NCBI RefSeq assembly: GCF_015240255.1
Contig: NZ_CP061205.1
Location: 1,385,501 to 1,449,500, forward strand
Reading direction: 5' to 3'
From: Kordiimonas pumila
Lineage (GTDB): Bacteria; Pseudomonadota; Alphaproteobacteria; Sphingomonadales; Kordiimonadaceae
Length of the DNA stretch: 64,000 bases
In this document: positions 7,242-57,049 of the stretch, one piece after another
Position numbering within the stretch: the first letter of the stretch is position 1
Layout: each line of letters starts with the position of its first letter
Notes under the pieces: model-generated
Told to the model about the DNA's origin: nothing
What the model saw: only the letters and a program-made list of their open reading frames with translations
Database searches by the model: none
Program-made: the position numbers and the translations under genes

Positions 7242-8138
7242 TTAGCCGAGTAGGCCTTCTTCGAAAAGCCGTTTGATACAGTGTGCCGTGCTGTCTTGCC
7301 AGCTGGGCATGGTAAAGCCATATGTTTTTTCAAATTTATCACAGTTTAGCCTGCTGTTCGCGGGGCGTTTTGCTTTTGTAGGGTATTCAGCCGTTGTAAG
7401 CGGGTTCAGCGTGGGTACAGGATGACCGTATTTAGCGGCTTCCTTGAAAATTTCAGCAGCAAAACCGTGCCAGCTTGTACTGCCTGTGCCTGCCAGATGG
7501 AAAACCCCTGCGTGTTTTTTATCTGGCTCTCCACTGGTTAATACATCCAGTACATGCAGGCATGCGGCCGCAATGTCCGCTGCATAGGTTGGGTTGCCTA
7601 GCTGGTCGCTTACCACACCGAGTGTGTCTTTGGTTTTGGCAAGGTTCAGCATGGTTTTTAGAAAGTTTTTCCCGAAAGGGCTATAGACCCATGCTGTACG
7701 CAGAATAACCGCTTTGGTATTTTCGGCCTTAACAGCGATTTCGCCAGCAAGTTTGCTGTGGCCGTAAACACCGGTTGGTCGCACCGGATCTTTTTCTGTG
7801 TAAGGTGTTTTTTTCAGGCCGCCAAAAACATAGTCGGTTGAAATATGGACAAAAGGTACCTGCATTTTGTGAGCAATGCGCGCCAACTTGCCTGCGCCGT
7901 CTGCATTGATGGCAAGCGCGGTGGTGGCATCGTCTTCGGCGGCATCAACCGCGGTATAGGCGGCGGCATTGATGATTGCAGTGGGCTTATGGTCTGCTAT
8001 ATAGCTTTCAAGGTTTGCAAGGTTGGCCAGATCAAAATCAGGCCTTCCTGCTGCTATATAGTCCAGTCCTTTTGCCTTTGCAGCTTCCTGTAGGGAAAGG
8101 GCAACCTGCCCAGAGCCGCCAGCAATAAAAATGCGCAT
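7242..8138 (-). CDS. rfbD: dTDP-4-dehydrorhamnose reductase
   Basis: It reduces dTDP-4-keto-L-rhamnose to dTDP-L-rhamnose with NAD(P)H, the last step of the pathway. The protein is 298 residues. The N-terminal Rossmann motif IAGGSGQVA (residues 5-13) is followed by NAAAYTAVDAAE, STDYVFGG and the catalytic YGHSKLAGE, in the order expected for RmlD of the extended SDR family. The gene starts four bases after the rfbB stop, implying coupled translation. The gene order rfbC-rfbB-rfbD-rfbA is a common arrangement. Confidence 0.96.
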   Translation of the reverse strand: MRIFIAGGSGQVALSLQEAAKAKGLDYIAAGRPDFDLANLANLESYIADHKPTAIINAAAYTAVDAAEDDATTALAINADGAGKLARIAHKMQVPFVHISTDYVFGGLKKTPYTEKDPVRPTGVYGHSKLAGEIAVKAENTKAVILRTAWVYSPFGKNFLKTMLNLAKTKDTLGVVSDQLGNPTYAADIAAACLHVLDVLTSGEPDKKHAGVFHLAGTGSTSWHGFAAEIFKEAAKYGHPVPTLNPLTTAEYPTKAKRPANSRLNCDKFEKTYGFTMPSWQDSTAHCIKRLFEEGLLG

Positions 8139-8142
8139 GATA

Positions 8143-9192
8143 TTATTTGCCTTTCAAGACGCCCTTGCGTTCCGCCGCATGGGTGCGCAGTGGTGCCCAC
8201 CACCATTCATTTTCCAGATACCATACAATAGTCTTTTCAATGCCGGTTTCAAAGGTTTCCCGTGCTTTCCAGCCCAGCTCTGTCTCTAGTTTGCTGGCAT
8301 CAATCGCATAGCGGGCATCATGGCCGGGCCTGTCTGTTACAAAGGTAATCTGGTCTGCATAAGGGGCATTTTTAGGGCGCAGCCTGTCAAGCGTTTCACA
8401 GATGCGGGTAACAACCTCAAGGTTTGTGCGCTCGTTCCTGCCGCCTACATTATATTTTTCGCCTAACCTGCCTTTTGTTAGCACAGTAAAGAGCGCGGCG
8501 GCGTGGTCATCAACAAACAGCCAGTCTCGAATATTGGTGCCGTCACCGTAGATAGGCAGGGGCTGGCCGTCGAGGGCATTCAGTATAACCAGTGGAATGA
8601 GTTTTTCAGGCAGGTGGTACGGCCCGTAATTGTTCGAGCAATTGCTGATAACCGCCGGGAAACCATATGTATGATACCATGCATTTGCCAAATGATCAGC
8701 TGATGCTTTAGAGGCCGAATAAGGCGAACTTGGGTCATAAGGGGTTGTTTCCTGAAACAGGCCTTCAGCCCCTAAACTGCCATAAACCTCATCGGTTGAA
8801 ACGTGCAGGAAACGGAAAGCTGCTTTGGCTGCTTCGCTGAGTGTGCCCCAATAGCTGCGTGCAGCTTCCAGCATGTTAAAGGTGCCAATAATATTGGTGT
8901 TAATAAAGTCTGCGGCACCAGTGATCGAGCGGTCAACATGGCTTTCCGCCGCTAGGTGCATCACACCGTCGGGCTTGTGTGCGGTAAATACACTGTCAAG
9001 CGCAGGTCTGTCGCAGATATCCACCTGTTCAAAATGGTAAAGTGGGCTGTTTTCAATTTCCTTAAGGCTTGCAAGGTTGCCAGCGTATGTAAGCTTGTCA
9101 ACATTCACAACACTGTGCCCGAGTTCCTGCACCAGATAACGGCAGACAGCAGAACCGATAAATCCAGCCCCTCCTGTAACAAGTATTTTCAT
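8143..9192 (-). CDS. rfbB: dTDP-glucose 4,6-dehydratase
   Basis: It converts dTDP-glucose to dTDP-4-keto-6-deoxyglucose using bound NAD+. The 349-residue protein shows the NAD motif [10 protein letters not shown] near residue 7, [10 protein letters not shown], the catalytic [10 protein letters not shown] with the Asp-Glu pair specific to these dehydratases, YSASKASAD as the YxxxK site, and [10 protein letters not shown]. All are standard for RmlB and the length is normal. It is second in the rhamnose operon, 18 bases after rfbC. Confidence 0.97.
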
Positions 9193-48356: not shown

Positions 48357-48384
48357 TTTTAGGGTGGGCTTTCCTGCCCTAAAA
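48357..48384. terminator. Bidirectional hairpin between mmsB and the LuxR gene
   Basis: TTTTAGGG and CCCTAAAA form the outer eight pairs, and TGGG/CCTG extends the stem to twelve with wobble pairs around loop CTTT. The stem overlaps the stop codon of the minus-strand LuxR gene and has its own A and T ends, so it can work in both directions. Confidence 0.75.
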
Positions 48385-49110
48385 CCGCATGACTGCAGAT
48401 TGCTGCTGTCTTTCTGGCCTTGCCATATAGCTGTCACTTGACGCGATATTATGGCCAGATGCCCCGTAGCGTATAACCGCCTGTGTTCGGTTTGAAACAC
48501 CCATGACCTTGAATATAGCGTGCATATGCGCTTTTACCGTGCCTTCTGCAATTCTGAGGCGGGCGGCTATTTCTTTGTTTGGCAGGCCAGCGGCAGCCAT
48601 GGCCAGAATTTGTTTCTGGCGGTAAGAAAGCTTTGTTAGATCAATCGATGGTTCATGGGCATCAATATTTTTCCGAAAGCGCGAAAATTCAGTGTTGATT
48701 GATTGCTGGATGCCAGTGCCAACGGTGGTGGGTGCTTTTGCTTGAAACGCATCTGCTGGCAAATGCAGGGCTTTCCTGATTGCCGCGATCAATTCTGGTA
48801 CGGCTGCACTGCGCGGTAGCACAGTGGTGCCCAAAAACCGGAAAGCCGTATCACCCGGTGCATTTGTTATCACCAGTATGCTAACACCAGGGTAAAGCCT
48901 GCGGATCAGTTTTATCCAGTCGCTGGCTGGGTTTTTCATGCTGTCAGCATGCAGTACAATTAGTGATACATCTGTATAACTTGCTGTTTTCGAGAGAAAG
49001 TCCTGCTCGGTGCCAATTTCAATAATGTCAGTAAAGCGCCCTGCAAGGGCCACAACTTCTCTAACTGAAAGGCGGTATAGCTCTTCCCCGTCTATTATAA
49101 GTGCTTTCAT
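48379..49110 (-). CDS. LuxR-family regulator with degenerate receiver domain
   Basis: The 243-residue protein has an N-terminal receiver-like fold and a C-terminal LuxR/FixJ helix-turn-helix (about residues 170-228: LSYRQKQILAMAAAGLPNKEIAARL, AEGTVKAHMHAIFKVMGVSNRTQAVI). The receiver lacks key residues: the acidic pair is reduced to IIDGEE, the strand that should hold the phosphate-accepting Asp reads LIVLHAD with His54 in its place, and the conserved Lys reads LPRSA. Phosphorylation is therefore doubtful. No sensor kinase is adjacent. It is divergent from the M20 hydrolase and ast genes across 326 bases, so it could regulate arginine catabolism. Confidence 0.88.
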   Translation of the reverse strand: MKALIIDGEELYRLSVREVVALAGRFTDIIEIGTEQDFLSKTASYTDVSLIVLHADSMKNPASDWIKLIRRLYPGVSILVITNAPGDTAFRFLGTTVLPRSAAVPELIAAIRKALHLPADAFQAKAPTTVGTGIQQSINTEFSRFRKNIDAHEPSIDLTKLSYRQKQILAMAAAGLPNKEIAARLRIAEGTVKAHMHAIFKVMGVSNRTQAVIRYGASGHNIASSDSYMARPERQQQSAVMRF

Positions 49111-49436
49111 TGTATCCTCTTTTGCTGTCGCGCTAATCGGCTGACGGGCTGGCAGGATGTAAAACTGAAAACAGCTTCCTGCTGTGCTTTATGGCGTTTA
49201 TGGCTTGCCCGCCAGAGATGGGAAAGCCTGTTCCCCAGAACTTTCCCACTGAAACCATAGCAAAAACGGGATGAATACTGAGGCTTATTAGATGAAGTGA
49301 GTAAAAATTGCGATAAAGCGAGCAAAGTCTCGTAAATGCTAAATTTTGGCCCGAAATACATAGCAGGCAAATTACAGATAGTGTTATGGTGCCGACCTTG
49401 TAATTCTTTAGTCAGGTTAAAAATCAGGTTTCTTTA
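49111..49436. other. Intergenic region between the LuxR and M20 genes
   Basis: This 326-base gap holds the divergent promoters of the regulator and the M20 hydrolase. A minus-strand frame of 87 codons (49107-49370) exists but has a low-complexity, basic translation and runs into the LuxR start, so I do not call it a gene. The only notable element is the inverted repeat listed separately. The last 70 bases are AT-rich. Confidence 0.6.
49219..49248. promoter_or_regulatory. Inverted repeat TGGGAAAG-N14-CTTTCCCA
   Basis: The eight-base arms at 49219-49226 and 49241-49248 are perfect complements separated by 14 bases. It lies about 110 bases upstream of the LuxR start and about 190 bases upstream of the M20 start. 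It could be an operator for a dimeric regulator or a hairpin in a leader transcript. Confidence 0.45.
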
Positions 49437-50699
49437 ATGTCCAGTATTGTAAATGCCTTTTCCAACAAAGATGCTTGCGCAGCGGCGCTAGAGCAGGTCA
49501 GCGAACGCCAGTTAGAAATGGTTGCGCTTGTTGAGGCATGGTCAAAAATAAACAGCGGTAGCCGTAATTTGGTGGGCCTTGACACGATGGAAGCCGAAAT
49601 TGTGAAAGCCTTTGAGCCGCTAGGCGCTGAAGTGGCTTATATACAGCTGCCTGACGGTGAAATGGTGAATGCCAAGGGTCAGGTTGAGACCATGAAAAAC
49701 GGTAGATGTATCCGTATTTTCAAGCGGCCAACGGCGAACAGAAAAGTACTGCTTACAGGCCATACAGATACGGTTTTTGCCGTCGATCACCCTTTTCAGG
49801 CCCCCAAATATCTGGATGATATTACCCTGAATGGCCCTGGTGTGGCTGATATGAAGGGCGGTATTATTGTGATGTTGAATGCTCTAAAGGCGTTTGAAGA
49901 AACGCCAGACGCTGCAAGTGTGGGCTGGGAAGTGCTGTTGTCGCCCGACGAGGAAACCGGCTCTCTTGCTTCGGGTGCTATACTCGCTGAGCGGGCTAAA
50001 ACTGCTGATATTGGCCTTACATACGAACCAGCACTTGCGGACGGCACCCTTGCTGGTGCGCGCAAAGGCAGTGGTAATTATACGGTTGTGGTGCAGGGCA
50101 AGGCGGCGCATGCAGGCCGCGAATTTCATGTGGGCCGTAATGCTGTTGTCGCTTTATCTCAGATTGTAGGTGAACTTGCGTCACTTACAGGCGGCAGGCC
50201 AGAGCTAACCGTTAACCCTGCTGTTGTTCAGGGCGGGGTTGCAGCAAATGTGGTGCCTGATATGGCATGGTGCCGGTTTAATGTACGTCTCAAAGAACCT
50301 GAAGATGCGATCTGGTTTGAAAATAAGGTACAGAATATTATCGACAAAGCAAATGCCGTTGAGGGTTATAGCGTGATGTTGCACGGCGGTATTAACCGAC
50401 CGCCTAAAGCGCTTACACCGGCGAATTTGCTGTTGATGGAAAAAATTAAACTATGCGGCGCTGATCTGGGTATTGATGTAAACTATGTGCCAACAGGTGG
50501 GTGCTGCGAAGGAAATAACCTTGCTGCAGCAGGGTTGCCAAATGTTGATACACTCGGCGTTAGGGGCGGTAAAATTCATTCGGCAGAAGAATTTGCCCTT
50601 ATTGACAGTTTTTCAGAACGTGCCAAATTATCGGCGCTCATTCTGATGGCTTTTGCAAATGGTCTTTTGGATGACGTTGTAAAAGCAAAGGCCCATTGA
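49437..50699 (+). CDS. M20-family metallohydrolase next to the ast genes
   Basis: The 420-residue protein belongs to the M20/CPG2-like group of dizinc peptidases and deacylases. The metal and catalytic residues are visible: His109 in LLTGHTDTVF, bridging Asp138 in GPGVADMKGG, the general-base pair Glu172-Glu173 in SPDEETGS, and a metal-region segment TGGCCEGNNLAAAGLP. The dimerisation lid sits about residues 210-320. It has no signal peptide, so it is cytoplasmic. It directly precedes astA-astD-astB, while AstE is absent from the window, so cleavage of N-succinylglutamate is an attractive guess. The usual AstE belongs to the unrelated M14 family. Confidence 0.85.
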   Translation: MSSIVNAFSNKDACAAALEQVSERQLEMVALVEAWSKINSGSRNLVGLDTMEAEIVKAFEPLGAEVAYIQLPDGEMVNAKGQVETMKNGRCIRIFKRPTANRKVLLTGHTDTVFAVDHPFQAPKYLDDITLNGPGVADMKGGIIVMLNALKAFEETPDAASVGWEVLLSPDEETGSLASGAILAERAKTADIGLTYEPALADGTLAGARKGSGNYTVVVQGKAAHAGREFHVGRNAVVALSQIVGELASLTGGRPELTVNPAVVQGGVAANVVPDMAWCRFNVRLKEPEDAIWFENKVQNIIDKANAVEGYSVMLHGGINRPPKALTPANLLLMEKIKLCGADLGIDVNYVPTGGCCEGNNLAAAGLPNVDTLGVRGGKIHSAEEFALIDSFSERAKLSALILMAFANGLLDDVVKAKAH

Positions 50700-50706
50700 G
50701 GCCAAA

Positions 50707-50785
50707 GGCAACCGGGGCCCTGAAGAGTTGCCCGGACGTCTGGACCAAACGAAGATGCAACATAGATAAAAATCTTGTTTGGTCC
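50707..50785 (+). promoter_or_regulatory. Two-hairpin leader before astA
   Basis: The 106-base gap after the M20 gene holds GGCAAC/GTTGCC (50707-50712 with 50727-50732) and then a long stem. The long stem pairs arm GGACCAAACGAAGAT (50742-50756) with ATCTTGTTTGGTCC (50772-50785), 14 pairs plus a bulged G. No T-run follows, so it is not an ordinary terminator. It ends about 20 bases before the astA start and could affect mRNA stability or translation. Confidence 0.6.
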
Positions 50786-50805
50786 CGAAAATAAGGAAAA
50801 ATCAC

Positions 50806-51843
50806 ATGTTTGTGGTTCGACCCTCACGAATGAATGATCTGGACGGGTTACAGGCTCTCGCTCAGAAAACAGGAATAGGTTTCACATCACTGCCTGATGA
50901 TCGCCCTACACTTAAAAAGAAACTTCAAGCGTCGATCGAAGCGTTTGAAAGTGACGGCGATACAGCAACCAGCAACAGCTATCTTCTGATGATGGAAGAT
51001 ACCAAGACAGGTAAGATAGTCGGCACTGCCGCTATCATTGTCGGTGTGGGTTTAGAGCGCCCTTTTTATAATTACCGTTTACTGCGTCAAACGCAGGTTT
51101 GTTATGATCCGCCAACACGGGTTGATACAGAACTTTTGCACCTCGCAAATGATTTTTCGCTGGATACAGAGGTTGCGACCCTGTTTCTGGATCCTGATTA
51201 CAGGCGCGACAACCTTGGTAAGCTGCTTGCCAAAGCACGCTATATGTTTATTGCATCACATCCTGAACGCTTTACTGACCGTGTGTTTGCAGAAATGCGC
51301 GGCTGGGTGGATGAAAATAATAATTCCCCCTTTTGGGAGGCTATTGGTCGTCATTTCTTTGGGATGGACTTTAAAACGGCTGATGAAATAAATGGCATGG
51401 GCAACAGCCAGTTTATTGCTGATCTTATGCCTAAGTTCCCCATTTATACAGCCTTACTGCCTGAGGCGGCACAAGAAGTTATTGGCCGCCCGCAAGATGC
51501 AGCACGCCCAGCTTATCGCTTGCTTGAAAAAGAAGGTTTCCGCTATACAGGCGCGGTTGATATTTTTGATGCTGGCCCCGTGCTGGAGGTTGATAAAAGC
51601 CTGATCTGGACAGCGAGAAACAGCATCGAGGCAACTCTTGGCGGTACAGTTGACGGGGTGACAGAAAACCCGGCTTACCTTATCGCGAACCCTGACCTTA
51701 AAAATTTCCGTGTCACAATGGCGCATGTTGTTGATGGTTCAAGGGGTGTTTGGCTATGCAGCGATGCAGCCCAAGCCTTGGACCTGAAAGAAGGAGATGC
51801 CCTTCTGTATGCACCAATTGAAAAAGCACGTATAGCCGAATAG
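50806..51843 (+). CDS. astA: Arginine N-succinyltransferase
   Basis: It transfers succinyl from succinyl-CoA to arginine, the first step of the AST pathway of arginine catabolism. The ATG at 50806, preceded by AAGGAAAA, gives 345 residues (MFVVRPSRMNDLDGLQALA), the family length. FLDPDYRRDNLGKLLAKARYMF and FAEMRGWVDENNNSPFWEAIGRHFFGMDF are hallmark segments of the GNAT-like AstA. It precedes astD by ten bases. Only one AstA chain is present, so it is the homomeric form. Confidence 0.95.
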   Translation: MFVVRPSRMNDLDGLQALAQKTGIGFTSLPDDRPTLKKKLQASIEAFESDGDTATSNSYLLMMEDTKTGKIVGTAAIIVGVGLERPFYNYRLLRQTQVCYDPPTRVDTELLHLANDFSLDTEVATLFLDPDYRRDNLGKLLAKARYMFIASHPERFTDRVFAEMRGWVDENNNSPFWEAIGRHFFGMDFKTADEINGMGNSQFIADLMPKFPIYTALLPEAAQEVIGRPQDAARPAYRLLEKEGFRYTGAVDIFDAGPVLEVDKSLIWTARNSIEATLGGTVDGVTENPAYLIANPDLKNFRVTMAHVVDGSRGVWLCSDAAQALDLKEGDALLYAPIEKARIAE

Positions 51844-51853
51844 GGGTTTAAAA

Positions 51854-53332
51854 ATGACACATTATATAAATGGTAACTGGCAGCAAGGCGCTGGCCAGAC
51901 CTTCAAATCGTTTGATCCTTCAAACGGGTCTGAAATATGGACAGGTAGTGAAGCAACGGCAGCGCAGGTAAACGAAGCTGTGCTGGCGGCAGAAAGTGCC
52001 TTTGAAACATGGGGGTTCACGCCTCTTGATGAGCGGCTTGCCATTATTCGGCGCTATGCAGAGCTTCTGGTGGAAAAACGCCCGGAACTGGCAGAGCTTA
52101 TCGCCCGTGAGGCCGGTAAAACATTGTGGGATGCAACCGGTGAAGCAACCGCAATGGCTGGCAAAATCGAGATATCGATCAAAGCACACACTGAGCGCAC
52201 GGGCGAGCGCGAGGCTGTTAACGGGCTTATAAAATCACGGCTTTCTCACAGGCCACACGGTGTAATGGCGGTTTTTGGGCCGTATAATTTCCCCGGCCAT
52301 TTGCCAAACGGGCATATTGTACCGGCGCTTATTGCCGGTAACACTGTGGTGTTTAAGCCAAGCGAGATAACGCCAGCCGTTGCTGACTATATGGTAAAAG
52401 TGTGGGCAGAGGCTGGTCTGCCTAAAGGTGTGCTGAACCTTGTACAGGGTGGGCGCGATACAGGCGCGGCACTTTTGGCGGCAGAGGGTATTAACGGCCT
52501 TCTGTTTACCGGTAGTGCTAAAACCGGGCTTTTCATGGCACGCACTCTGCTAGAACGACCGCAGGTTATTCAGGCACTTGAAATGGGCGGTAATAACCCG
52601 CTTATTGTTGCTGAGGTGGAAGACAAAACCGCAGCAGCGGTTATGACCATTCTTTCAGCTTTTGTAAGCTCTGGTCAGCGTTGCACATGTGCTAGGAGGC
52701 TCATTGTGCCGACAGGTGCTGAAGGTGATGCTTTTGTTGAAGCTTTAAAAGTAGCAATGGCAAAAATTACAGTGGGCGCATGGGATGATGCCGAGCAAAG
52801 CTTTATGGGACCGGTTGTTAGCAAGCATGCTGCTGGTGTGGTGCTGGCCGCTCAGAAAAACCTTATTGATAACGGTGCTGAGGCGCTGGTGCCTGTTACG
52901 CAGTTAGCGCGCGGTGATGCTTTCCTGTCGCCAGGTTTGCTTGATGTAACCCATACGAAAGACCGGCCAGATGAAGAAGTGTTTGGCCCTATGTTACAGC
53001 TTATTCGGGTGCCAGATTTTGCGGCGGCTATCAAGGAAGCTAATAATACCAAGTATGGTTTGGCCTCTGGGCTTATTTCCGATTCTACAGAGCTGTATAA
53101 CCAGTTTTTCCCGCGTGCGAAGGCAGGCATTGTGAACTGGAACCAGCAGTTAACGGGTGCAGCCTCCACGGCACCGTTTGGTGGTATAGGTTGGTCGGGC
53201 AACCACCGGCCAAGCGCTTATTATGCAGCTGATTACTGCGCCCATGCTGTTGCAACCATGGAGCAGGCAGAAGGCAAGGTCGCTGTTGCTGCCATGCCGA
53301 TTGGCTTAAAGCTTGACGGTGAGGGTGCATAA
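51854..53332 (+). CDS. astD: Succinylglutamate-semialdehyde dehydrogenase
   Basis: The 492-residue NAD-dependent aldehyde dehydrogenase oxidises N-succinylglutamate 5-semialdehyde, the fourth step of the AST pathway. It has HRPHGVMAVFGPYNFPGHLPNG, FKPSEITPAVA, FTGSAKTG and the nucleophilic Cys in SSGQRCTCARRL, a form typical of AstD. Its stop codon overlaps the astB start by one base (TAATG). Confidence 0.95.
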   Translation: MTHYINGNWQQGAGQTFKSFDPSNGSEIWTGSEATAAQVNEAVLAAESAFETWGFTPLDERLAIIRRYAELLVEKRPELAELIAREAGKTLWDATGEATAMAGKIEISIKAHTERTGEREAVNGLIKSRLSHRPHGVMAVFGPYNFPGHLPNGHIVPALIAGNTVVFKPSEITPAVADYMVKVWAEAGLPKGVLNLVQGGRDTGAALLAAEGINGLLFTGSAKTGLFMARTLLERPQVIQALEMGGNNPLIVAEVEDKTAAAVMTILSAFVSSGQRCTCARRLIVPTGAEGDAFVEALKVAMAKITVGAWDDAEQSFMGPVVSKHAAGVVLAAQKNLIDNGAEALVPVTQLARGDAFLSPGLLDVTHTKDRPDEEVFGPMLQLIRVPDFAAAIKEANNTKYGLASGLISDSTELYNQFFPRAKAGIVNWNQQLTGAASTAPFGGIGWSGNHRPSAYYAADYCAHAVATMEQAEGKVAVAAMPIGLKLDGEGA

Positions 53333-54666
53333 TGTGGCAGGAAGTAAACTTTGACGGCCTTGTTGGCCCTGTTCATAATTATGCTGGGCTTTCATACGGT
53401 AATGTGGCGTCTGCCAGTAATAAGGGGCTGGTTGCCAACCCGCTTGAGGGCGTGCTTGAAGGTCTTGAAAAAGCACGTTTTTTAAGCGGTCTTGGTATGG
53501 TGCAGGGGGTTTTGCCCCCGCATGACCGGCCTCATATCAGTACGCTGCGCAAGCACGGGTTTAGCGGTTCTGACGCTGAAATATTAGCGGCGGCATGGCG
53601 GGAAAACCCGGCCCTTATCAGGAATGTGACATCAGCCTCCACCATGTGGACAGCAAATGCAGCGACAGTTTCGCCCAGTCCTGATACGGCAGATGGCCGT
53701 GTGCATTTTACGCCTGCCAATTTGGCAGCCATGTATCACCGTTCTATTGAGGCACCAACAACGGCTAGAATACTGCAAGCCATGTTCCCGGAAGGGCAGA
53801 ATTTTGCCCACCATGCGCCGCTTGAAGGTGGCACGCACATGGGCGACGAGGGTGCTGCAAACCATAACCGTTTTTGCGCTGAATACGGTGAGGTGGGTGT
53901 TGCGCTTTATGTTTATGGGCGCGGCGCTTTTGAAAATGCGGCAGAATTGAAGTTCCCAGGTAGGCAAACCCGCGAGGCAAGCGCCGCTGTTGCCCGCCAG
54001 CATGCGACAGCACCAGAGAAAACCCTTTTTGCACGGCAAAGCAGCAGGGCAATTAATACGGGCGCTTTCCATAATGATGTGGTGGCCGTTTCAAACCGCA
54101 ATAGCTTTTTCTATCATGAGCATGCCTTTGATAGCCCTGATGCACTTGAGGCTGATATTCAAAACGCAATGGGCGATGTGGAAATGCAGTTTGTGCGGGT
54201 GCTGGAAAGCGAAGTGCCGCTTGCTGACGCTGTAAAGTCGTACCTTTTTAACAGCCAGCTTTTAAGTGTGCCAAACAGAAAAGGCATGACCCTTATATTA
54301 CCGCGAGAGGTTGAGGAAACTGCATCTACAAAGGCATATGTGGAGGGGCTTGTTTCATCTGGTGGGCCTATAGGGCAGGCTGAAATACTGGATGTGCGGC
54401 AAAGCATGCGTAATGGAGGCGGGCCAGCGTGCCTTAGGCTTCGTGTTGTGTTAAGTGACGAGGAACTGGCCGCAATGGGCGCTAATAGCCTTCTTGATGA
54501 CACGCTATATGAAACACTGAAGGTCTGGGCGAAAAAATATTACCGTGACCGGTTGATGCCAGAGGACCTTGGTGATGTAAAACTGATGGAGGAATCGTTT
54601 TTTGCTATGGACGAGCTGACACAAATTTTGCGTCTTGGTAGTGTGTTCGACTTTCAGCGCGGGTAA
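53332..54666 (+). CDS. astB: N-succinylarginine dihydrolase
   Basis: The 444-residue enzyme of the amidinotransferase fold hydrolyses N-succinylarginine to succinylornithine, CO2 and ammonia. It begins WQEVNFDGLVGPVHNYAGLSYGN, the family signature, and carries the catalytic His in FHNDVVAVSN and Cys in NGGGPACLRLRVV. It ends the plus-strand ast run. Neither astC nor astE follows; succinylornithine transamination may be done by ArgD elsewhere. Confidence 0.95.
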   Translation: MWQEVNFDGLVGPVHNYAGLSYGNVASASNKGLVANPLEGVLEGLEKARFLSGLGMVQGVLPPHDRPHISTLRKHGFSGSDAEILAAAWRENPALIRNVTSASTMWTANAATVSPSPDTADGRVHFTPANLAAMYHRSIEAPTTARILQAMFPEGQNFAHHAPLEGGTHMGDEGAANHNRFCAEYGEVGVALYVYGRGAFENAAELKFPGRQTREASAAVARQHATAPEKTLFARQSSRAINTGAFHNDVVAVSNRNSFFYHEHAFDSPDALEADIQNAMGDVEMQFVRVLESEVPLADAVKSYLFNSQLLSVPNRKGMTLILPREVEETASTKAYVEGLVSSGGPIGQAEILDVRQSMRNGGGPACLRLRVVLSDEELAAMGANSLLDDTLYETLKVWAKKYYRDRLMPEDLGDVKLMEESFFAMDELTQILRLGSVFDFQRG

Positions 54667-54688: not shown

Positions 54689-54716
54689 GGCCGGGTGTTT
54701 TATCCCGGCCTTTTTT
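54689..54716 (+). terminator. Terminator of the ast operon
   Basis: GGCCGGG and CCCGGCC (54689-54695 with 54704-54710) flank loop TGTTTTAT, and TTTTTT follows. It is a textbook intrinsic terminator 22 bases after the astB stop. Confidence 0.93.
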
Positions 54717-55272
54717 ATATGTCGCTAACTGACCCAAGCTGGGTGACAATGTCGTTATCTGTAATACCGTTACGGTGATAATGATCTGCGGTTTCTCGTG
54801 GTAAAGAACTGTATTTCACAACACCAATAAAATAGCGCGGCTCATTGTTTTTATCCAGTAAAGGCAAGTGAATGGCGCGTTGAAGTCGCAGGGACCCTGA
54901 TGGCAGTTGAAAAGGGTGTTCCAAATACCCAGCAGAGGCACTTTCTGAAAGGCTGGTGAAATAATTACTGTAAGTTTGCTGCAAGGCAGCGTAGCTTGTC
55001 TGGAGAATATTTTCACCGGTTGTTTCCCGGTCCAAGTATTCCCTAAGACTAGTTCCTGCAACGCGGGTTACAATGCAGTTCTGGTCAAGACGTTCATAAA
55101 GGAATACGGTTCTAAGGAACTTACCTAATTTTATAGGGTTAAAGCTATCCTTTCTTGGGCACTGTATAGAATCAGTTTTTGGCAAATTATTCCAAATACC
55201 TACAAGTGTAGATGCTTCTTCACAGAAATGTATGCTTTTATTAAATTCTACCATTGCTAGACTGTATTTCAA
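54715..55272 (-). CDS. PAS-domain protein (PAS_5 type)
   Basis: The 185-residue protein looks like one PAS_5 domain. After a short start, the WNNLPKTDSIQCPRKDSFNPIKLGKFL stretch (CPRKDSFNP being the recognisable core) is followed by VFLYERLDQNCIVTRVAGTSL and then a beta-rich end (GSLRLQRAIHLPLLDKN, YFIGVVKYSS). No output domain is attached, so it may be a stand-alone sensor or an adaptor. It converges on astB across the terminator. The ligand and partner are unknown. Upstream, 55273-55427 is very AT-rich. Confidence 0.75.
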   Translation of the reverse strand: MKYSLAMVEFNKSIHFCEEASTLVGIWNNLPKTDSIQCPRKDSFNPIKLGKFLRTVFLYERLDQNCIVTRVAGTSLREYLDRETTGENILQTSYAALQQTYSNYFTSLSESASAGYLEHPFQLPSGSLRLQRAIHLPLLDKNNEPRYFIGVVKYSSLPRETADHYHRNGITDNDIVTQLGSVSDI

Positions 55273-55427
55273 AAAAAATAAACTTCAATCATTTTTATTA
55301 AATAAAATTTAACTATATTTTTAAGTAACTTTCTTTTTTTGATCACGAAAATGGTAACAAGACGTTACTGGACCTTGGAAAATAAGGCGCTATTCTAAGC
55401 TGCATATTGTTGCAGGAGATATATAGT

Positions 55428-56387
55428 ATGCTGATAAAACACCGTGAAAACTGGCATGCCAGTGAAAATGAAGTGACATCAGAACAGCATTATCTGAATC
55501 GCAGGCATTTTATACGCTCTGCGACGGGGGGTGTTTTAGCTGCAACGGCACTGGGTGTCAGCCAGACTGTATTTGCAAGGGAAAACCGGACCCTTCAGCC
55601 ACTGACTTACAGCAAAACAGCTTACAATCCGGGCGAAGACTTAACACCGGAAGATGCCATCACAAGCTATAATAATTTTTACGAGTTTGGGCTGGATAAA
55701 AGCAATCCCTCTGAAAATGCCTGGCGGCTTGAGCCAAAGCCATGGAGTGTTAAAGTCTCTGGCATGGTGGATGCGCCGGGTGATTATGCCTTTGAAGACC
55801 TTATTGATATGAAGGCACTTGAGGAACGTATTTACAGGCTGCGCTGCGTTGAGGGTTGGTCCATGGTTGTTCCGTGGATAGGGGTTCCGCTTGCAAGTGT
55901 TTTGAAAAAGCTTGGGCCACAATCTGGTGCTAAGTATGTTGCGTTTGAGACACTTGCTGATCGTGACCAAATGCCGGGTATTAGGTACCCTGTACTAGAC
56001 TGGCCGTATGTTGAAGGATTAACGCTACCTGAGGCCATGAATGAATTGGCTTTCATCGCGGTTGGCCTGTACGGTAAGGAAATCCCGAATCAGAACGGTG
56101 CACCGCTAAGGCTTGTCGTGCCTTGGAAATATGGTTTTAAGTCAATAAAGTCGATTGTTAGTATTAAATTAACAGACCGGAAACCAGCAACAAGCTGGAA
56201 TAAATCCGCCAGTAACGAATATGGGTTTTACTCGAACGTAAACCCTGAGGTAGACCACCCACGCTGGAGCCAGGCAAGAGAAAGGCGCATTGGTGAGTTT
56301 AGCCGCCGTAAAACCTTGATGTTTAACGGGTACGGCGAACAAGTGGCGCACCTTTATACTGGGCTAGATTTGGAAAAGAACTTCTAG
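55428..56387 (+). CDS. msrP: Protein-methionine-sulfoxide reductase, catalytic molybdoprotein subunit
   Basis: The ATG at 55428, with GCAGGAGAT upstream, gives 319 residues; the frame extends seven codons further but without a ribosome site. A Tat signal (NRRHFIRS, then a hydrophobic core ending near VFA-RE) precedes the sulfite-oxidase-fold domain. Cys140 in YRLRCVEGWSMVVPW is the molybdenum ligand. QNGAPLRLVVPWKYGFKSIKSI binds the pterin. It reduces oxidised methionines in periplasmic proteins using electrons from MsrQ. A GTAAC/GTTAC repeat lies at 55354-55368 in the promoter gap. Confidence 0.94.
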   Translation: MLIKHRENWHASENEVTSEQHYLNRRHFIRSATGGVLAATALGVSQTVFARENRTLQPLTYSKTAYNPGEDLTPEDAITSYNNFYEFGLDKSNPSENAWRLEPKPWSVKVSGMVDAPGDYAFEDLIDMKALEERIYRLRCVEGWSMVVPWIGVPLASVLKKLGPQSGAKYVAFETLADRDQMPGIRYPVLDWPYVEGLTLPEAMNELAFIAVGLYGKEIPNQNGAPLRLVVPWKYGFKSIKSIVSIKLTDRKPATSWNKSASNEYGFYSNVNPEVDHPRWSQARERRIGEFSRRKTLMFNGYGEQVAHLYTGLDLEKNF

Positions 56388-56389
56388 GT

Positions 56390-57049
56390 ATGGCGCTTTT
56401 TAGTCAGAAAAACCTGCGGCGTTACGGTAAGCCGTTTGTGTTTGCCCTGTTTTTAATTCCAGCTGTATGGCTCATTTATAATTGGGTGCAAGCTTATGCC
56501 GGTGCGCCGCACGACCTTGGGTTTAACCCGCAGGAAACGTCTAACCGCTTCACGGGGGATTGGGCCTTGCGGATACTACTTTTGTCTCTTGCTCTGACGC
56601 CGCTATCCCTGCTTACCGGGTCGCCGCGCTGGATATTATTTCGCCGCATGACCGGGTTATTTGCATTCTTTTATGTGTGCCTACATATCACCAGTTATAT
56701 ATGGCTTGATATGCAGTTTGACTGGTCTGAGCTGTGGACCGATGTTGTAAAACGTATTTATATTACAGTTGGCTTTACGGCGCTGTTATGCCTGTTGCCG
56801 CTTGCTATAACCAGCACGGCGGGGTGGGTAAGGCGGCTTGGGGCTAAGCGCTGGCAAAAACTGCACAAGCTTGTGTATGCTGTGGGGGTTCTTGCGGTTA
56901 TTCATTTTATTATGATGCGCAAGGGTTTTCAGTTTGAACCCCTTATATACGGTGCAGTGCTCGCTGGCTTAATGGTCTTTCGCTTGCCTATGGTAAAGAG
57001 CTGGCTACGGCGTCGCACCCAGCAAAAGCCTATTAACGCGGGCGTTTAG
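56390..57049 (+). CDS. msrQ: Heme b membrane subunit MsrQ
   Basis: The 219-residue integral membrane protein starts two bases after msrP. It belongs to the ferric-reductase-like transmembrane domain family. It has six hydrophobic spans, with WALRILLLSLALTPLSLLTG, FFYVCLHITSYIWLD (heme-ligand His) and WQKLHKLVYAVGVLAVIHFIMM (two further His). It passes electrons from quinone or flavin to MsrP. It overlaps the convergent MaoC-type gene by 17 bases at the 3' end. Confidence 0.93.
   Translation: MALFSQKNLRRYGKPFVFALFLIPAVWLIYNWVQAYAGAPHDLGFNPQETSNRFTGDWALRILLLSLALTPLSLLTGSPRWILFRRMTGLFAFFYVCLHITSYIWLDMQFDWSELWTDVVKRIYITVGFTALLCLLPLAITSTAGWVRRLGAKRWQKLHKLVYAVGVLAVIHFIMMRKGFQFEPLIYGAVLAGLMVFRLPMVKSWLRRRTQQKPINAGV

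Follow-up and report, generated by a model that had tools for sequence, protein, structure and literature searches.

How does Kordiimonas pumila complete the breakdown of arginine through the arginine succinyltransferase pathway? The question is raised by a stretch of 64,000 nucleotides of its genome, a single contig of 4.04 Mb (NZ_CP061205.1, positions 1,385,501 to 1,449,500 of the forward strand; the whole stretch is called the window below). In it, the genes astA, astD and astB form one run on the + strand behind a gene for a putative dizinc hydrolase of the M20 type (positions 49437-54666, from the listing of open reading frames, ORFs). A preliminary description had noted this layout and the absence from the window of AstE, the M14-type enzyme of the last step, and had proposed that the M20 hydrolase replaces AstE. 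The ORF coordinates and the matches to NCBIfam and Pfam agree on the layout (Table 1).

The steps of the pathway are well established. In K. pumila, AstA would succinylate arginine, AstB would open succinylarginine to N2-succinylornithine, an aminotransferase encoded elsewhere (of the AstC or ArgD type) would yield the semialdehyde, and AstD would oxidise the semialdehyde to N-succinylglutamate. The M20 enzyme would then hydrolyse the amide by means of two metal ions and E172 as a general base, releasing succinate and glutamate.

Comparative genomics strongly supports the proposed replacement. NCBIfam places the M20 protein in NF005602/PRK07338, whose only name is 'hydrolase'. As M20 and AstE did not co-occur in any genome compared and the M20 gene lies in the same operon as the ast genes, the enzyme very probably performs the last step. 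The family is thus very likely to represent the N-succinylglutamate desuccinylase of the ast pathway and a non-orthologous replacement of AstE, with a substrate and a reaction that are predicted. No statement of such a role for the family was found in the searched open-licence papers, although databases such as the Fitness Browser or GapMind may already list it, and the word 'desuccinylase' is absent from the main text of PMC9007349.

Distribution and linkage of the M20 hydrolase and AstE

No AstE over the curated cut-off was found in the 4.04-Mb host genome: PF04952 gave 0 matches, and the sole match to the AstE model TIGR03242 was a partial one of 22.9 bits (cut-off 305.65). These searches bear out the absence noted for the window and extend it to the whole genome. 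The AstE cut-off was likewise reached in none of 27 genomes drawn from 28 of the 48 named M20 loci described below. Failure of the AstE model in M20 bacteria was considered as an explanation; these M20 genomes yielded just partial matches of 19-31 bits (E 0.001).

The two enzymes exclude each other across genomes. A phylum draw covered 398 genomes; AstB was present in 102, NF005602 over its cut-off in 36 and AstE in 77. The 102 AstB genomes comprised 35 with M20 only, 65 with AstE only, none with both and 2 with neither (Fisher p 2.6e-25), and the genomes lacking AstB included one with M20 (G501) and 12 with AstE. An order draw of 110 genomes was taken from the order of G432, chosen as a part of the tree where both enzymes occur and presumably gammaproteobacterial; its 34 AstB genomes had M20 in 13 cases, AstE in 20, both in 0 and neither in 1. 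Over the two draws, 125 AstB genomes gave 47 with M20, 75 with AstE, 0 with both and 3 with neither, and M20 over its cut-off was found with AstE in none of all 398 and 110 genomes. Counting tool-assigned family codes instead of genomes, we obtained 12 with M20, 18 with AstE, 0 with both and 2 with neither (Fisher p 4e-7). For these counts AstE was accepted at E 1e-20, a level at which 58 of 77 matches in the phylum draw and 16 of 23 in the order draw also exceed the curated cut-off. Scoring in the phylum draw was limited to at most 4 first-look candidates per genome for NF005602 and 5 for AstE. Among 14 control genomes, Escherichia coli has AstB with AstE, and Caulobacter vibrioides has AstB with NF005602.

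The M20 gene is also tightly coupled to ast genes. A pattern scan of a collection of genome contigs with the window M20 protein, a query picked irrespective of its neighbours, retrieved 48 loci in named records, all of them close relatives. Each of the 48 has the M20 gene immediately before astA in the same orientation, the two being -22 to 188 bp apart. The full order M20-astA-astD-astB is found in 43; of the remaining five, four are truncated at contig ends and one (L007) shows no astB. Judging by record titles, the named loci include Thalassolituus, Oceanobacter, Marinagarivorans, Pseudomaricurvus and one record labelled planctomycete. Among all 79 fetched records with both genes, of which three or more duplicate the contig of another record, 77 had M20 no further than 200 bp ahead of astA (median gap, 5 bp). 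At the threshold applied, astA went unmatched in five M20 loci: L051, L074 (which repeats L051), L056, L077 and L078.

Linkage was equally apparent in the genome draws. In the phylum draw, 32 of 35 genomes had the M20 gene 1.0-3.2 kb from astB and on its strand. In the order draw, where distances were derived by hand, the M20 gene was within about 5.4 kb of astB in 10 of 13 genomes, the two genes being on different contigs in the other three. A class draw of 142 genomes contained NF005602 in 3, each time on the strand of astB and about 2.7 kb or less from it. Chance linkage was rejected on the strength of all three draws. The linkage of M20 to ast recurs where AstE is missing, and the suggestion in the preliminary description of similar hydrolases near ast genes in other alphaproteobacteria was correct, with a reach extending to gammaproteobacteria and the labelled planctomycete. 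Together with the lack of co-occurrence among the 125 AstB genomes, this linkage supports the M20 enzyme as a replacement of AstE with a predicted activity.

Clusters that have been broken up are informative as to the step involved. In L052, L058 and L060, M20 stays beside astA-astD, and astB is on another contig or was not found; in L051, it stays beside astD, with no adjacent astA match. At the genome level, G413 and G503 keep M20 with astA-astD and have astB on another contig, G501 (L052, 4810-10093) has M20-astA-astD and no astB match in the genome (E 1e-30), and in G432 M20 adjoins astD and astB but no astA match. These broken-up clusters point to the end of the pathway.

Family, active site and predicted fold of the M20 protein

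The M20 protein is well over the curated cut-off of NF005602 (Table 1), and Pfam recognises the domains Peptidase_M20 and M20_dimer. Its second-best family is 'glutamate carboxypeptidase' (NF004788; 197.1 bits, under the cut-off of 349). It scores below the cut-offs of the ArgE and DapE models shown (TIGR01910, 91.6 bits vs 217.6) and has no sequence similarity to AstE that would place it in TIGR03242. Its closest relatives with species names are Kordiimonas proteins of 67-76% identity. Inspected by eye, the sequence shows no obvious signal peptide.

The metal and catalytic residues H109, D138, E172, E173, E197 and H381 are identical in all 86 rows of a family alignment, in agreement with the earlier observation that the visible metal residues are all there, and they align with those of carboxypeptidase G2. 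A dizinc site is predicted from these aligned, invariant residues. Also invariant in the 86 rows are R209, H225, R228, N271, R284, R321, K324, C357, N360, N361 and T372. A few rows of this alignment repeat one contig, and those of L070 and L073 are matched stretches with one stop each, written X. By alignment, the carboxypeptidase G2 counterparts of N271, R284 and R321 are residues 275, 288 and 324 (numbering derived by hand). The basic cluster formed by R209, R228, R284, R321 and K324 would suit a substrate with three carboxylates, such as N-succinylglutamate. Three paralogs from outside ast clusters (L063, L064 and L161), whose NF005602 matches are below the cut-off, share 31-35% identity with the window protein and keep the metal site; they differ from it at R228, C357 and T372, and two of the three also at K324 and R321.

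A confident AlphaFold model of the M20 protein (pLDDT 94.6, pTM 0.91) has carboxypeptidase G2 as its top solved structure, with Z scores of 42.8-43.2 over 383-385 residues. A tripeptidase and DapE follow at Z of about 34, and ArgE at 31.6-32.6. Foldseek likewise puts carboxypeptidase G2 first.

Counter-evidence and alternative explanations

Several observations weigh against the desuccinylase assignment. AstE and M20 track taxonomic families, and on a tree of AstB the number of independent pairs, 4 on starred branches and 9 on all branches, is too small for significance. Four AstE genomes (G357, G408, G460 and G496), counted as M20-negative, have NF005602 matches of 272-285 bits, below the cut-off; a fifth such match is in G617, which has neither AstE nor AstB. 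G278 has its M20 gene apart from ast. In family f2 of the window's order, which we take to be the Sphingomonadaceae (taxon names for f2 and for the order of G432 are our assumptions), seven of nine fetched loci (L069 and L151-L156) have M20-astA-astB with no astD within 5.5-8 kb on each side; the other two (L068 and L148) contain astD. No AstC-type aminotransferase was found among ten other ORFs of the window (scan at E 1e-60), the remaining genome not having been searched for it. Finally, G110, G482, G592 and, from the class draw, G116 have AstB with neither M20 nor AstE, and G116 even has a full astA-astD-astB run (L055, 5149-9158).

No match to NF005602 (E 1e-90) or AstE (E 1e-10) was obtained in G116, where the divergent neighbour of the run encodes a protein of the metallo-beta-lactamase fold. 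In G110 (L054), astB stands head to head with a gene at 7268-8485 (- strand), whose product displays by eye the HGNE and DIHS motifs of M14 proteins of the AstE/AspA kind. This protein has no match in NCBIfam (E 1e-5) or Pfam (E 0.01), and its HHalign probability against AstE is 49.8; it is possibly a third solution to the last step. G482 (L053) has astB with no other ast matches, and in G592 (L160) astB is the sole match among the queries.

The AstB tree was built from 100 rows of several fetches (41 AstE, 56 M20 and 3 neither). Named Kordiimonadales rows were thinned, some near-identical ones being kept, and the row of L054, with neither enzyme, was under the score threshold and left out. 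The M20/AstE label requires 7 changes on this tree, at least 4 of them being forced by starred branches. Because of these 7 changes, either the swap happened several times or clusters moved between lineages. In the starred-branch pairs, M20 and AstE are opposite in 3.1 on average and never change the same way.

The main alternative is that N2-succinylornithine is the substrate, from which the M20 enzyme would cleave succinate much as ArgE deacetylates N2-acetylornithine; arginine would then become ornithine by way of a succinyl carrier, with AstC, AstD and AstE bypassed. ArgE and DapE are both M20 enzymes, and seven of the nine f2 loci, with no astD nearby, would suit such a route. However, astD would be idle in it, and yet the run includes astD in 43 of the 48 named loci; the gene is also present in other alphaproteobacterial loci (L142-L147) and in the two remaining f2 loci. 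The broken-up clusters argue in the same direction, as M20 adjoins astD with no astA match between them in L051 and keeps astA and astD, not astB, in L052, L058 and L060. In addition, the fold is nearer to carboxypeptidase G2 (Z about 43) than to ArgE, and the pocket carries identical charged residues whether or not a lineage has astD linked. We consider this alternative very unlikely. A related idea, that M20 is (also) an N2-succinylornithine desuccinylase providing a succinyl-carrier shortcut from arginine to ornithine in lineages such as f2, is likewise very unlikely; to our knowledge, no such shortcut has been described for the ast pathway.

The M20 enzyme might instead feed or tidy the pathway, for example by cleaving peptides or folates to free arginine or glutamate, with a housekeeping enzyme such as DapE performing the last step. 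Enzymes like carboxypeptidase G2 do cleave peptide-like amides, and DapE already handles a succinyl amide. We nevertheless regard this as highly improbable, as it leaves unexplained both the exclusion of M20 and AstE (0/398 and 0/110) and the tight coupling of M20 to astA, and the protein has no apparent signal peptide.

The 22.9-bit match to the AstE model corresponds to an M14-type protein (L001, 1243-2346) encoded at 906 kb of the host genome, about 0.53 Mb from ast. Weak AstE-model matches of this kind are present in 18 of the 27 genomes of named M20 loci. As a general substitute for AstE it was rejected, since 9 of those 27 genomes have no AstE-family match at all (E 0.001). That it is the real N-succinylglutamate desuccinylase, M20 having some other role in arginine use, is extremely improbable: PF24827, the catalytic domain of AstE/AspA, is present (120.8 bits against a cut-off of 25) and the HHalign probability to the AstE profile is 94.5, but the protein scores far under the AstE cut-off, more closely resembles DoeB (60.9 bits, a score that is also far under the DoeB cut-off of 402.7), has an N-terminus that looks exported by eye and lies far from ast.

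The operon, its surroundings and known systems

AstA, AstD and AstB of the window are all over cut-off, AstA by the subfamily model TIGR03243; for the narrower equivalog TIGR03244, it reaches 355.9 bits, below the cut-off of 391. The ORF of astA is listed from a TTG at 50779, and its start was taken as 50806. From the ORF coordinates, the gaps are 106 bp between M20 and astA, 10 bp between astA and astD and -1 bp between astD and astB.

Table 1. Features of the ast operon of K. pumila in window coordinates
Feature	Position	Strand	Support
LuxR-family (GerE) regulator, divergent; candidate operon regulator	48379..49110	-	GerE domain
Regulator-M20 intergenic region, likely site of the operon promoter	49111..49436	.	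Gap between ORFs
Predicted dizinc hydrolase of the M20 type (NF005602/PRK07338) and proposed N-succinylglutamate desuccinylase in place of AstE	49437..50699	+	420 aa; 549.3 bits vs cut-off 357; Pfam
astA, arginine N-succinyltransferase	50806..51843	+	TIGR03243 386.7 bits (cut-off 284.35); Pfam AstA 415.5
astD, succinylglutamate-semialdehyde dehydrogenase	51854..53332	+	TIGR03240 705.6 bits (cut-off 579.3)
astB, N-succinylarginine dihydrolase	53332..54666	+	TIGR03241 591.2 bits (cut-off 538.3); Pfam AstB 626.8

Relatives of the LuxR-family protein (35-60% identity) are encoded divergently just upstream of M20 in 29 other locus records, mostly Kordiimonadales-like, and this conserved position makes it a candidate regulator of the operon and of arginine catabolism. 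The promoter is likely to lie between the two genes, as judged by the layout only. Downstream of astB are genes for a PAS_5 protein and a pair resembling MsrP/MsrQ by eye (54715-55272, - strand, and 55407-57049, + strand); relatives of the PAS_5 protein occur in 14 other locus records and those of the MsrP-like protein in 21.

Elsewhere, the L052 cluster is near genes for an amino-acid dehydrogenase-like protein and a ureohydrolase of the agmatinase family (193.7 bits, cut-off 174.3), and it is possibly an ornithine-only version of the pathway. By eye the ureohydrolase, in G501, had been taken for an arginase; it is over the cut-off as an agmatinase instead, and we place little weight on it. 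The dehydrogenase-like neighbour resembles the product of a gene divergent from M20 in L058 (10387-11433) and L060 (10550-11593), whose best model is Trp_DH_ScyB, below cut-off.

If the assignment is right, NF005602/PRK07338, an unnamed enzyme family, gains a function, and a gap in arginine catabolism is closed in many alphaproteobacteria, among them Kordiimonas, its relatives and C. vibrioides, and in some gammaproteobacteria. Two unrelated kinds of zinc hydrolase would then catalyse the same reaction. The AstB tree implies four or more changes between the two, and tools that predict pathways could score M20-ast pathways as complete.

With AstE (TIGR03242), the M20 enzyme would share its reaction and its position in the pathway, and in two draws the two were never in one genome. 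They differ in that their profiles have no similarity (HHalign probability, 0.1), and in the fetched loci AstE mostly follows astB where directly linked, whereas M20 precedes astA. DapE and ArgE are M20 deacylases, and DapE removes succinate from an amino acid; the M20 protein is, however, far under their cut-offs and at Z of only about 34 and 32 from their structures. Carboxypeptidase G2 (1cg2, 6xj5) has the same fold and metal residues, albeit at 24-25% identity, and it frees glutamate from an amide, an activity known for folates. The ast-linked group is set apart from the three paralogs by R228, C357, T372 and mostly K324. NCBIfam assigns no specific function to NF005602/PRK07338, of which the K. 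pumila protein is a clear member, and the one given here is a proposal.

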